From IMG/VR virus record IMGVR_UViG_3300031957_000300, positions 1 through 38,101 of that record: a stretch of DNA of 38,101 nt; one strand, 5' to 3'. Origin of the DNA: a virus. Shown piece by piece: positions 5,627-37,650 of this stretch. The notes below the pieces were generated by a model. The model ran no database searches and was not told the origin of the DNA. It saw nothing but the letters and a program-made list of their open reading frames with translations. Position 1 is the stretch's first letter, and each line of letters starts with the position of its first letter. The translations under genes were made by a program, and so were the position numbers.

Positions 5627-5917
5627 ATGACAACTAGTTACAAAAAAGAGGCAATCAAAGAGCTGAAAGCGCAAAAGAAATTAGAGCGCGAAGCTGAGGC
5701 TGAAGCGCTGTCTGCAAAAACAGCAGAAGAAGCAAAAGCACAAGCTGAGAACGAAGCTCGTCTTGCAAAAAAATTAGCGCGTATTGCTAAAGGTGAATCT
5801 GCTCCGGTAGAGCCAGAGCCTACGCCAGAACCAGAACCAGTCGCAGAGGAAGAAAAGCCTGTTGCGAAAAAGCCAGCGCCGAAAAAGCGTGGGCGACCAG
5901 CTAAGAAAAAGGGGTAA
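5627..5917 (+). CDS. Lys/Ala/Glu-rich coil with histone-H1-like, AT-hook tail
   Basis: A 96-aa low-complexity protein. Residues 1-55 are an alternating Lys/Glu/Ala helix typical of a single alpha-helix or coiled coil. Residues 60-75 are a Pro/Glu repeat. The C terminus is KKPAPKKRGRPAKKKG, which contains an AT-hook core (RGRP) in a lysine/proline/alanine tail resembling histone H1 tails. Minor-groove DNA binding is therefore plausible. It has a good AAGGAG ribosome site and lies between portal and scaffold genes, so it should be made late and may be packaged or act on DNA during head filling. No named family was recognised. Confidence 0.6.
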   Translation: MTTSYKKEAIKELKAQKKLEREAEAEALSAKTAEEAKAQAENEARLAKKLARIAKGESAPVEPEPTPEPEPVAEEEKPVAKKPAPKKRGRPAKKKG

Positions 5918-28953: not shown

Positions 28954-29667
28954 ATGTATCAATTAAAGAATTACATGTTGTCCATGCAATCGCATTGGAT
29001 GATCAACCAGAACACGTATCAGGCGGTTCAAGACTCTCTCCCCATCATAACTAAGTATGCAGCACAGCAGGGTGTCGGTAAGATGAAAAAGACGCCCATA
29101 CATAAGATGTTGAGCAACCCCTTTCCAGAAGTGTACACCATGCCGATATTCAGGCGCAGCTGGTGCAAGATGATGTGTGAAGAGATTGATCACATGAAGA
29201 AGGAGTTTGGCTTTGAAGGCAATGAAGATGAAGACAGCCTACGCCAGATCCCAGAGATAGTATTGCGAGAGCGCTCCCCGGAGCTGTACCAGAACATGTG
29301 GTTTGTGGTTCGTAACATACTGGACCCCATCATTATGTCTATCTGGCAACGCAGCTGCCCGGATCCTGCCAGCATTCAGATAGCCAACTACAACATCAAA
29401 GAGCGAGATCAAGGTAACTGGCACCATGATGAGAGTGCAGACATAAGCGTTGTTGTGCCGTTAAATACAGGCGAATACACAGGCGGTGGTACAGAGTTTC
29501 ACAATCACGGCAAGCTCAAGCCATTGCCCAATGGACACGGTCTTATCTTCCCATCATTCACACACAATCACCGTGGCCTCCCGGTTGGCGAGGGTGATCG
29601 GTATCTTCTGGTTTTCTGGTTGTGCGACAAAAGCAGGGCGATTGAGCTGTTGCAAAATGCTCCATAA
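28954..29667 (+). CDS. Fe(II)/2-oxoglutarate-dependent oxygenase
   Basis: A 237-aa protein. The C-terminal half is a prolyl-hydroxylase-like double-stranded beta helix. The iron ligands are the HxD motif HHD (H157, D159) and a distal His in FTHNHRG (H206). The 2-oxoglutarate-binding Arg is R216 in EGDRYLLVFW. Strand pattern ISVVVPLN and GGGTEFHN also fits. The N-terminal 110 residues are helical and unrecognised. Such oxygenases are common in marine phages, with protein or nucleic-acid hydroxylation proposed but substrates mostly unknown. The start codon has no clear ribosome site; ATGs at 28975 and 28984 are alternatives. Confidence 0.82.
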   Translation: MYQLKNYMLSMQSHWMINQNTYQAVQDSLPIITKYAAQQGVGKMKKTPIHKMLSNPFPEVYTMPIFRRSWCKMMCEEIDHMKKEFGFEGNEDEDSLRQIPEIVLRERSPELYQNMWFVVRNILDPIIMSIWQRSCPDPASIQIANYNIKERDQGNWHHDESADISVVVPLNTGEYTGGGTEFHNHGKLKPLPNGHGLIFPSFTHNHRGLPVGEGDRYLLVFWLCDKSRAIELLQNAP

Positions 29668-30201: not shown

Positions 30202-30225
30202 GGGAGCTTAAGCTCCCTTTTTTTT
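30202..30225. terminator. bidirectional intrinsic terminator between convergent genes
   Basis: A perfect 16-bp palindrome GGGAGCTTAAGCTCCC (30202-30217) followed by eight T on the plus strand. On the minus strand the stem is followed by TTATTATTTG, so it can serve both convergent transcripts. It overlaps the last codons of the minus-strand gene ending at 30208. Confidence 0.88.
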
Positions 30226-30399
30226 GGCCATCATTTTGTCGGTGTATTCCCGGTAATTATCTTGGAACATCTTCTCCCACCACTGTTCCCAAGTAATCAT
30301 TTGTTTTGGTGTACGAACACGACGCCTTGTCCAGACCCACCGAGCAGCGCAAAGTTTCTTTTGCTCCGCCCAGATAGCTTCCTGATCTTCAGATGTCAT
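30208..30399 (-). CDS. 63-aa Trp/Lys/Arg-rich protein, unknown function
   Basis: The last gene of the minus-strand early operon. It overlaps the SET gene by 11 nt at its start and runs into the terminator, whose A-run encodes the final KKKGA. The sequence is basic with five Trp (WAEQKKLCAARWVWTRRRVR, then ITWEQWWEKMFQDNYREY). It is a helical, possibly nucleic-acid-binding peptide. Tight coupling to the SET gene suggests shared function, but nothing identifies it. Confidence 0.6.
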   Translation of the reverse strand: MTSEDQEAIWAEQKKLCAARWVWTRRRVRTPKQMITWEQWWEKMFQDNYREYTDKMMAKKKGA

Positions 30400-30700
30400 A
30401 ATTGAGTGTCAGCTCCTCGCCTTTTTCTATATCCCTGACGGGAAAAAGATGAAAAACAAGATAATCGTCCCACTCGTACACGTTTTCTAGCATGCAATTC
30501 GCATCTTCAGAGTGGTTGAGGAAACCACCCAACGGTGTTCGCACAAAGCCTTTGTATAAAGGCATCTTGATATGAGTAGGGCCTAGATCGGCGCCTTGTT
30601 CTATCTGCTCCGCAGCAAAGACACCATGTCCTTCTATTTCGCTCTCGCCTAACTTCAGGTGGTCGGGCAAAGGCCGATAGTAAAACTTATCTAAAATCAT
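30389..30700 (-). CDS. minimal SET-domain protein (lysine methyltransferase type)
   Basis: A 103-aa protein consisting of little more than a SET core. EIEGHGVFAAEQIEQGADLG (21-40) is the N-terminal SAM-binding strand region. FLNHSEDANC (60-69) matches the NHSxxxN motif, and GEELTLNYDI (94-103) matches GEE(L/I)TxxY with the active-site tyrosine region. The length and motif spacing resemble vSET of chlorella virus PBCV-1 (119 aa), which methylates histone H3; this protein ends right after the tyrosine and lacks vSET's last strand. It starts on a TAATG overlap with the exonuclease gene. Its substrate is unknown; phage, host or lysine-rich virion proteins are all possible. Confidence 0.82.
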   Translation of the reverse strand: MILDKFYYRPLPDHLKLGESEIEGHGVFAAEQIEQGADLGPTHIKMPLYKGFVRTPLGGFLNHSEDANCMLENVYEWDDYLVFHLFPVRDIEKGEELTLNYDI

Positions 30701-31473
30701 TACCAGAGATCGCCCAGCTCCACGACTTGTGTGCCGGTGATGTTGAATGGCTTGTAGTCGTCGTTATCTTTGCAATCCAACAACGTCTTGAGCGCTTGCT
30801 CATTCTTAGCCTTGCCATACTCTACAGCTTCATCTGAGAGCGTATAAACCGCAAAAGGATAGGGGTGTAGCTTCTCTTGTGCCAAGAACATAAACTGCTC
30901 TGCTGGCAGATTTGAGGCCCTAGCAGCCTCTAAATACAGTGCAGCTTGCATATAGTAATTAAAACTATTGATGGCGTTTTTGAAGCCTCTGGGTGATGCG
31001 TCACGCGCAGTTTTAAGATCCCAAACATTCTTCCCGTCATACCAATCGAACCGTGCTTTGAACGGGTGGTTATGCCAATAGAAACAGACAGTCAGCTCTA
31101 CCTTATGTGTTCCATGTGGAACATATTCTTCGACTACCTTTCTGCGGTCCATGCACACGTCGTACATGTCTTGCTTGATCGGTGTGCGGTCACCTATCCC
31201 GGCCTTGAAGTCTTCGTACTCTTCTTTACCGGCTTTGGTCCTGCGGTCTACATTTGGTTCGATCACAAACTCTTCGTCAAACTTATCCAGCTCCAGAAAC
31301 ACACAGTGTTGTACCCGGCCTTCGATTAGGGCCGGTGTTTCCTTCATCGGTCCTTGGTGCTTCCAAGTGTAGGGACATTTAATTACAGAGGTGAGATCAT
31401 GAGATCTGAACGCCTCAATCTCTGCATACTCTGGGTACGGTACGTTTTCGTAAACGCCTACTTTAAACTCCAT
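30700..31473 (-). CDS. RecE/exonuclease VIII-like PD-(D/E)XK nuclease
   Basis: A 257-aa protein. The ATG at 31473 follows AAGGAGGAG and was chosen over an upstream in-frame start that would run through the DUF3310 gene. Motifs fit lambda-exonuclease/RecE-type nucleases: H56 in EGRVQH, D143 in KARFDWYD, D152-x-K154 in VWDLKTA, and the Q-x3-Y motif in YYMQAALY (Q176, Y180). It would degrade one DNA strand 5' to 3' for single-strand annealing recombination. No annealing protein gene was recognised next to it, although an SSB-like protein is encoded at the head of the operon. Confidence 0.82.
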   Translation of the reverse strand: MEFKVGVYENVPYPEYAEIEAFRSHDLTSVIKCPYTWKHQGPMKETPALIEGRVQHCVFLELDKFDEEFVIEPNVDRRTKAGKEEYEDFKAGIGDRTPIKQDMYDVCMDRRKVVEEYVPHGTHKVELTVCFYWHNHPFKARFDWYDGKNVWDLKTARDASPRGFKNAINSFNYYMQAALYLEAARASNLPAEQFMFLAQEKLHPYPFAVYTLSDEAVEYGKAKNEQALKTLLDCKDNDDYKPFNITGTQVVELGDLW

Positions 31474-31729
31474 CGCTCCTCCTTGGATCCTCACCGGCAG
31501 CTCGCTTGGTATACCAGCACGATTTTCCCAGATCTTCAGTATCCGTGGCGCCTTGTTTCTTGCCAGCACGCCATAAATATTTGAACGCATTGATCTTTGC
31601 ATAGATCCGCACTTGGTCTTCGCCAAACGCGCTCACCATGGCATCAATACATTCGATGTCACCACTAAGGTAGTGACTAGGTGAATTGACTACTGAGTCA
31701 ATCTTCTTCGGTCTGCCTCTCTTCGCCAT
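31463..31729 (-). CDS. DUF3310 protein
   Basis: An 88-aa protein with a basic AT-hook-like N terminus (MAKRGRPKKID), then the DUF3310 signature VVNSPSHYLSGDIECID and INAFKYLWRAGKKQGATDTE followed by DLGKSCWYTKRAAG. DUF3310 is found alone in many phages and inside nucleotide kinases such as T7 gp1.7, so a role in nucleotide metabolism is suspected but unproven. It overlaps the exonuclease gene by 11 nt. The C terminus carries a short charged extension (GEDPRRSDGV). Confidence 0.82.
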   Translation of the reverse strand: MAKRGRPKKIDSVVNSPSHYLSGDIECIDAMVSAFGEDQVRIYAKINAFKYLWRAGKKQGATDTEDLGKSCWYTKRAAGEDPRRSDGV

Positions 31730-31908: not shown

Positions 31909-32637
31909 TTAAAAGGGTACGTCTTCTTCTTCGTCGGGTTCGTCGTCTTTCGCAAGATCCGCTAGACCACCAGACTCAGCAGCTGGTGCTGGTTTTGATC
32001 CGCCCTTTTCTTTAGCAGCTTTCAATTCAAGAGATTCTTCTATCATCTCTTTCATCCATCCCGGCATCTCTTCAAAGATGTCGCACATGGCTTTTGATTC
32101 TTTGCATGACTCGCCAGTAAACTCTTTGCTGTAGATGTCTAGATCAAACGCGACCTGATCGTTCTCAGTCTCAATTGACTTAACGCCACCATCTGGTTTG
32201 TAAACACCCTCGACAGCTGTGCCATCAGAGCCGTCTTGTTTTTGATAGCCAATCACTTCTAACTCACACGTCTTGCCAAGCAAGTTATCGATGTCAAAAG
32301 CTTTGAGCTGATCTGCTGTGAATGGCTTGCCACGCCATGATTTAAGATCGAGATGCAGGGTTGCATTCTCGTTTAATGATGCCGTGTACTTCTTGGAAAT
32401 GCTAAAAGGTCTGTCGTCAGACATTTTTATTTCATCCCAGAACTCATCGCCATCCTCACCCATTTGCATATGGGACACTTCCCAATAAATGTAAACGAGC
32501 GCCCTTTTCTTTTCTGGTCCACCCTTGAAGCTTTCCATCCGACTGCCAGCGTCCACAATCTTGTAGCACGCTGCTTTGTAACGGCCCGGTTGCAAACTTT
32601 CGTAGTCGCCGCCGCCGCTTGATACTGTTAATCCCAT
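31909..32637 (-). CDS. putative single-stranded DNA-binding protein
   Basis: A 242-aa protein, first of the minus-strand early operon, with a good ribosome site (CCGGAGG). It has an N-terminal Gly-rich start, a beta-rich central domain (PGRYKAACYKIVDAGSRM, RALVYIYWEVSH) and the block SISKKYTASLNENATLHLDL with KSWRGKPFTADQLKAFDID, which I know from a widespread phage family. The C terminus is a flexible acidic tail ending DEEEDVPF, closely like the DDxIPF tip that SSB proteins use to bind partner proteins. That ending and the operon with an exonuclease, beside a primase, support an SSB role. Confidence 0.65.
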   Translation of the reverse strand: MGLTVSSGGGDYESLQPGRYKAACYKIVDAGSRMESFKGGPEKKRALVYIYWEVSHMQMGEDGDEFWDEIKMSDDRPFSISKKYTASLNENATLHLDLKSWRGKPFTADQLKAFDIDNLLGKTCELEVIGYQKQDGSDGTAVEGVYKPDGGVKSIETENDQVAFDLDIYSKEFTGESCKESKAMCDIFEEMPGWMKEMIEESLELKAAKEKGGSKPAPAAESGGLADLAKDDEPDEEEDVPF

Positions 32638-36941: not shown

Positions 36942-37364
36942 ATGGGCGCAGATTCTAGGAGGAAAGGCGCCACATTTGAAAGATCTGTGGTCACGCAAAT
37001 AAATGAGTGGCTTGAGTCCCAAGACATAAATTTTTCGTGCAAACGAAATTTGGACCAATATCAGCAAAAAGACCTTGCGGACATCGACATCCCGTATCAT
37101 GCGGTGGAGTGTAAACATTACGCCGATGGCTGGACCTACAAACCTGAGTGGCTCGCACAAGTGCGTGAGGCTGCGGGTGATAAAATCCCGGTTTTGATAT
37201 ATAAATACAACAGGAAACCGATACAGGTCTGTTTGCCTATGTACGCCGTCAATACTGAGTGGCCTGCGACAAACGATTTAGTGTGTATAATGACCATGGA
37301 GGATTGGTTTGAGGTGATGAACCGTAACTGGCGTCACTACGAAAGGATGGAAAGTTATGGCTGA
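36942..37364 (+). CDS. PD-(D/E)XK endonuclease, Holliday-junction-resolvase-like
   Basis: A 140-aa protein. The start at 36942 follows AAGG and the promoter; a longer GTG frame from 36879 would begin before the predicted transcript. The motif order fits Hjc/VRR-type nucleases: RRKGATFERSVV with E13, LADIDIP with Asp, then AVECKHY with the E-x-K pair and a Gln-containing helix (WLAQVREAAG). It would cut branched DNA, for example resolving replicating DNA for packaging, which agrees with its place between the small terminase gene and other late genes. Confidence 0.72.
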   Translation: MGADSRRKGATFERSVVTQINEWLESQDINFSCKRNLDQYQQKDLADIDIPYHAVECKHYADGWTYKPEWLAQVREAAGDKIPVLIYKYNRKPIQVCLPMYAVNTEWPATNDLVCIMTMEDWFEVMNRNWRHYERMESYG

Positions 37365-37650
37365 TGTAAAAGATGTTACTCGCACAAAGTCTGGTAGGTT
37401 GACCTACCGGGGCGAATCTTTTCCCGGTTACAACAAGCAAGTCCGCACCTCCGGTGGCAAGAAAAAATTTAAGGTTCTGGCAAAGAAAGGCGATCAAGTG
37501 AAGGTCGTTCGCTACGGTGATCCCAAGATGTCGATCAAGAAGGATCAACCGGCCAGACGCAAATCGTTCCGTGCGCGACATAACTGCGATGCGGTAGAAA
37601 AGAAAAAGGACGTGTTCGCGGCATCATACTGGTCCTGTAAGAACTGGTGA
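37357..37650 (+). CDS. conserved marine-phage protein, RRKSFRARHNC type
   Basis: A 97-aa basic protein, overlapping the nuclease gene by 8 nt. It has GESFPGYNKQVRTSGGKKKF, then KVLAKKGDQVKVVRYGDPKM and RRKSFRARHNCD, ending SYWSCKNW. This string is highly conserved in cyanophages, pelagiphages and some large DNA viruses. Its function is, as far as I know, not established. Two Cys and one His in the C-terminal part could bind a metal. The basic charge and late position suggest a virion or DNA-associated protein. Confidence 0.78.
   Translation: MADVKDVTRTKSGRLTYRGESFPGYNKQVRTSGGKKKFKVLAKKGDQVKVVRYGDPKMSIKKDQPARRKSFRARHNCDAVEKKKDVFAASYWSCKNW

Follow-up and report, generated by a model that had tools for sequence, protein, structure and literature searches.

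A SET-domain gene in a minus-strand gene run

The window (the whole stretch of DNA analysed here, 38,101 bases) is an incomplete IMG/VR record from a marine bacterial virus. The initial annotation described a 103-aa SET core with the motifs NHSEDAN and GEELTLNY, a late KKSKGGAMM repeat protein and several other very basic proteins. All of these exist. ORF translation confirms the 97-aa repeat protein (14667-14960), and the protein with an H1-like tail (5627-5917) and the two basic proteins within 13873-14657 are encoded as described. The SET core lies on the minus strand (30700 to 30389, starting with the ATG at 30700); the plus strand is not open at this locus, and no strand had been given before. 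The relevant features are as follows.

5627..5917, plus strand: 96-aa protein encoded after the portal gene, with an H1-like KKPAPKKRGRPAKKKG tail; homologues in SET-bearing and SET-free relatives
13873..14331, plus strand: basic late protein with a VYPSAYAN core and an RGCG tail; weak DUF5872 match below cut-off
14331..14657, plus strand: basic late protein of the phrog_23735 family (PHROG match)
14667..14960, plus strand: 97-aa protein of KKSKGG(A/S)(M/L)M lysine/glycine repeats, the proposed substrate; present in both SET-bearing and SET-free relatives
30208..30399, minus strand: Trp-rich 63-aa protein, start overlapping the SET end; conserved in relatives
30389..30700, minus strand: SET-domain protein, 103 aa, candidate protein-lysine methyltransferase of the PHROG 28741 family (profile, predicted fold, conservation)
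30700..31626, minus strand: exonuclease VIII-like PD-(D/E)XK nuclease, directly upstream of SET (Pfam/PHROG profile)
31463..31729, minus strand: DUF3310 protein, same run as SET (Pfam)
31909..32637, minus strand: phrog_862 protein, first gene of the run (PHROG match)

A DUF6321 label for the protein at 14331-14657 was rejected: there is no Pfam match there, and DUF6321 weakly fits a different protein.

The minus-strand run from 32637 to 30208 consists of the phrog_862, DUF3310, exonuclease VIII-like, SET and 63-aa genes. The TAA stop of the exonuclease gene overlaps the SET ATG by one nucleotide (TAATG), and translation of SET is probably coupled to that of both the exonuclease and the 63-aa gene. 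The latter is conserved in a SET-bearing relative (G008) and in a SET-free one (G010). The earlier placement of SET in an early operon is fair only as an inference from the gene content of this run.

Near the SET run, on the plus strand, the window encodes a 2OG-Fe(II) oxygenase (28954-29667), and similar oxygenases are found in related pelagiphages. A Superfamily II helicase-like gene (9775-11610) lies between capsid and tail genes, with strong homologues in G004 and G007-G010 and only weak ones in cultured relatives. A very basic 97-aa protein (RRKSFRARHNC..WSCKNW) is encoded at 37357-37650; its G007 homologue lies one gene from SET, on the opposite strand.

Family, fold and conservation of the SET protein

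The 103-aa protein matches the Pfam SET profile (PF00856; E 3.5e-10, 40.7 bits against a curated cut-off of 22.4) across its C-terminal half only (residues 59-101), and PHROG 28741 across nearly the full length of that profile (E 1.9e-21; residues 7-102, profile positions 2-94 of 100). A scan of viral contigs yielded 72 homologous loci, and dN/dS between close copies (window group and sister lineage) is about 0.05-0.07. Taken together, these results place the SET match far beyond chance. Nineteen columns are invariant in an alignment of 31 relatives, including G26 (of GHGVFA), N62, H63, S64 and Y101. The Ser of NHS is not strictly kept across the family, as two copies outside this alignment read NHA (G007) and NHL (L405), with Asn-His retained in both.

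An AlphaFold2 model of the protein (pLDDT 88, pTM 0.80) has 246 PDB matches at E<=0.001, the best 50 of which are all SET-domain structures. The best solved-structure match is the chlorella virus enzyme vSET (3kma; TM 0.71 and 0.70), and annotated SET proteins of uncultured Caudovirales phages are also among the fold matches. The family profile likewise matches vSET (5.8e-07) and the MLL/EZH2 SET domains. Profile, invariant residues, predicted fold and low dN/dS establish that the ORF is a real SET protein under selection, and the profile and fold matches uphold its original description as a minimal, vSET-like candidate methyltransferase. Judged by its invariant core residues (catalytic residues being assigned by motif) and by purifying selection, the protein is most likely catalytic. 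Lysine methylation would be the activity expected from its family.

Like the window protein, vSET (PBCV-1 A612L; PDB 1n3j, 3kma) is a minimal stand-alone viral SET protein of similar length, and the two are about 23% identical in structural alignment. They differ at the C-terminus, where vSET runs about 13 residues past the last matched motif and the window protein only 2. In other SET enzymes a post-SET segment closes the lysine channel. The 103-aa form ends two residues past Tyr101 and lacks this segment, which is thus either missing or must come from a partner.

By its profile match, the window protein is a member of an existing, already catalogued phage family (PHROG 28741), to which the "SET domain containing protein" of uncultured Caudovirales phages also belongs. 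Members are scattered over other gene contexts, and PHROG assigns them no function; one gene of a Manatee Spring phage takes its name from the PBCV-1 enzyme. Although such proteins are annotated, we found no study of a phage-encoded SET lysine methyltransferase in the searchable literature, and no paper naming SET domains in cyanophages in the literature searched.

SET as a one-gene cargo

Gene order in G008 is the same as in the window, and its SET protein is 77% identical. In G010 (51.7 kb; portal 88% identical to that of the window), the exonuclease and 63-aa genes overlap directly with no SET between them. The portal of G007 is also 88% identical to that of the window, yet its SET gene lies at another place and encodes a protein 65% identical to that of the sister lineage and only 52% identical to that of the window. 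These comparisons indicate that SET enters and leaves cleanly at gene junctions and that it was acquired more than once.

Elsewhere, SET is found among replication, ribonucleotide reductase or late genes. It lies beside DUF3310/PolA in L044 and L050, beside nrdB in P-SSM7, beside a primase/helicase-like gene in Kolga and beside baseplate genes in P-RSM6 and AG-345-P14; the homologues of P-RSM6, P-SSM7 and Kolga EXVC016S are 40-46% identical. The closest catalogued genomes to the window are the pelagiphages HTVC023P, HTVC027P and 023Pt_psg01 together with DSL-LC04 (TerL 57-61%, portal 43-50%). All four share the phrog_23735 basic protein with the window, and a homologue search found no SET in any of them. 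Across these contexts, SET behaves as a mobile one-gene cargo, which in the window would have been inserted (or retained) between the exonuclease VIII-like gene and the small Trp-rich gene.

The lysine/glycine repeat gene occurs with and without SET

The initial annotation proposed a writer-substrate pair in which SET acts on the phage's own DNA-condensing or virion proteins, such as the KKSKGG repeat protein, or on a host basic protein. In almost every related contig examined, SET-bearing or SET-free, the same late slot is taken by a lysine/glycine repeat gene, followed directly in most of them by the homologue of the window gene at 14964. The repeat protein gave no match in BLAST, being masked as low complexity. 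Repeat genes were sought with regular expressions and with a DNA pattern that was checked on the window and gave at least 120 stretches. The window shares the unit KKSKGG(A/S)(M/L)M with G007, G008 and many others. Other SET-bearing phages have KASKYMAKGG, KGTKYMAKGG or KGVKGKANGG, and SET-free phages ARMMNKGGTVK or KGTKYMAKGGKM; no clear repeat gene was picked up in one SET-bearing cluster (L279).

An early impression of near-perfect co-occurrence between SET and KKSKGG was overturned by wider sampling of relatives. Of 86 distinct complete clusters, 29 include SET and 57 do not, and KSKGG repeats occur in 23 of the former and 48 of the latter; the clusters were sampled by SET, portal or repeat pattern, these fractions are not population frequencies, and some of the 57 (window group, G007, G008) carry SET elsewhere. 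An identical 82-aa KKSKGG protein is encoded in L430, with SET in the cluster, and in L419, without it, and the repeat proteins of L398 and L379 differ by one residue, L419 and L398 being short contigs from genomes that may carry SET elsewhere. There are also KKSKGG contigs of 47-56 kb without SET.

Fourteen clade contigs exceed 40 kb, possibly incomplete genomes themselves. SET accompanies KKSKGG in three (G007, G008, G051) and another repeat unit in one (G048), KKSKGG occurs without SET in five (G087-G090, G092), and the other five (G009, G010, G029, G031, G114) are SET-free and fall outside the KKSKGG class. There is no association in this set (Fisher p 0.58); G114 shows no repeat in the stretch at hand, and the outcome is the same without it (Fisher p 0.58 or 1.0).

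The presence of the repeat with and without SET, the identical protein in L419 and L430 and the Fisher result leave the specific pairing of SET with KKSKGG unsupported, and SET also occurs with other units. SET genes are largely distributed without a link to the repeat, whose apparently independent spread speaks against an obligate pair.

A weaker association with small basic late genes

A weaker association than the one first proposed holds in three context types, where small basic late genes overlap SET or lie next to it. The sister lineage (portal about 57% identical) encodes a 111-aa SET form from within its late basic cluster, and the gene overlaps a basic gene at each end; a homologue of the 13873..14331 protein is encoded just downstream, and the repeat gene follows 0.9 kb after SET. 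In the T4-like phages P-RSM6 and AG-345-P14, SET shares 4 nt with the gene for a 45-49-aa basic core protein, and L061 encodes a relative of this protein directly downstream of SET. Members of this basic protein's family are found in 447 phage records, of which nearly all lack SET; P-SSM7 encodes the basic protein away from SET, which there neighbours nrdB.

When every locus is counted, SET has a basic neighbour at 6 of 17 loci against 2.2 expected (p 0.007), with four of the loci belonging to one lineage. This excess was lost once related contexts were collapsed (about 3 of 12 against about 1.2 expected, not significant, by a manual count with P-RSM6 added).

The P-RSM6 gene that overlaps SET (L233, 3861-3998) is an unannotated 45-aa basic gene, and relatives of its product are found in 447 cyanophage and related records. 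A separate observation concerns C-terminal tails. The motif RG[QC]G occurs within the last 32 residues of 124 of 593 basic ORFs (homologues not collapsed) against 1.2 expected after shuffling, and near the C-terminus of 4 of 4419 other ORFs. It is carried by the window protein 13873-14331, at its end (14260-14331), and by basic late proteins of L027, L018, L405 and L430. A tail module, GNKGLxKLPxKVRNKMGY...RGCG, is joined to one protein or another depending on the phage, or occurs by itself. The RG[QC]G tail could be a virion or packaging signal. That a marine phage SET writer methylates the small basic virion proteins sharing this tail, with partners differing by lineage, strikes us as quite unlikely; if true, it would be a phage counterpart of histone-tail marking.

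Candidate substrates

We favour the reading that SET is a mobile one-gene cargo and that its product is a minimal, stand-alone protein-lysine methyltransferase, whose likeliest target is a host protein or a phage protein made at the same time (probability roughly 0.6). SAM binding would involve the N-terminal GHGVFA segment together with the NH of NHSEDAN, and the methyl group would be transferred to a lysine next to Tyr101. We infer the activity, the timing and the substrate alike. Since the place of the gene suggests that SET is probably made early, a host protein or a co-made phage DNA-processing protein would be a likelier substrate than the late repeat protein; this choice of a host or co-expressed target is a judgement from gene place only. 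The late-region SET genes of the sister lineage and of P-RSM6 and AG-345-P14 do not fit a uniform early role. A phage host would not be expected to contain a eukaryotic histone of the kind that vSET acts on.

Alternatively, the phage might direct SET at late basic proteins of its own, the KKSKGG repeat or those encoded next to it, and so tune DNA condensation, packaging or ejection. The sister-lineage SET within the late basic cluster shortly before the repeat gene, the 4-nt overlap in P-RSM6 and AG-345-P14 and the downstream relative in L061 would all suit such a role, and there are precedents. vSET, which is packaged, trimethylates H3K27 of eukaryotic histones (PMC7019647). The archaeal Go1-SET, a prokaryotic SET protein with a DNA-binding substrate, methylates the DNA-binding protein MC1-alpha in vitro (PMC3980110), although Go1-SET is cellular rather than viral. 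However, the repeat and the basic proteins occur with and without SET, down to the identical repeat in L419 and L430; the context of the repeat lysines shifts among SET-bearing phages (KYMAKGG, KGKANGG); and neither the Fisher test nor the collapsed count of basic neighbours gives a significant association. We therefore consider methylation of the phage's own basic late proteins unlikely.

SET could instead modify a specific DNA-processing partner from its own gene run, such as the exonuclease VIII-like or the phrog_862 protein. This would agree with the overlapping genes in the window and with the placement of other SET genes next to DUF3310/PolA, nrdB or a primase/helicase-like gene, but G010 and G031 retain the exonuclease and phrog_862 genes while lacking SET, and the partner differs from phage to phage, which makes such a dedicated pair a rather improbable one. 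The very short C-terminus past Tyr101 and the replaced Ser in G007 (NHA) and L405 (NHL) would also suit a SET fold that no longer methylates and serves as a binding protein, a reading that is very doubtful given strong purifying selection and the presence of Asn, His and Tyr in all 31 aligned sequences.

The preferred reading, a mobile methyltransferase acting on a host or co-made phage protein, leaves a short list of candidate targets, from which the comparison across relatives has removed the most tempting one, the KKSKGG repeat, as an obligate partner. Several marine phage lineages carry the SET family, and selection maintains it, so that identifying its target would tell whether lysine methylation is a means by which phages control host or virion proteins.
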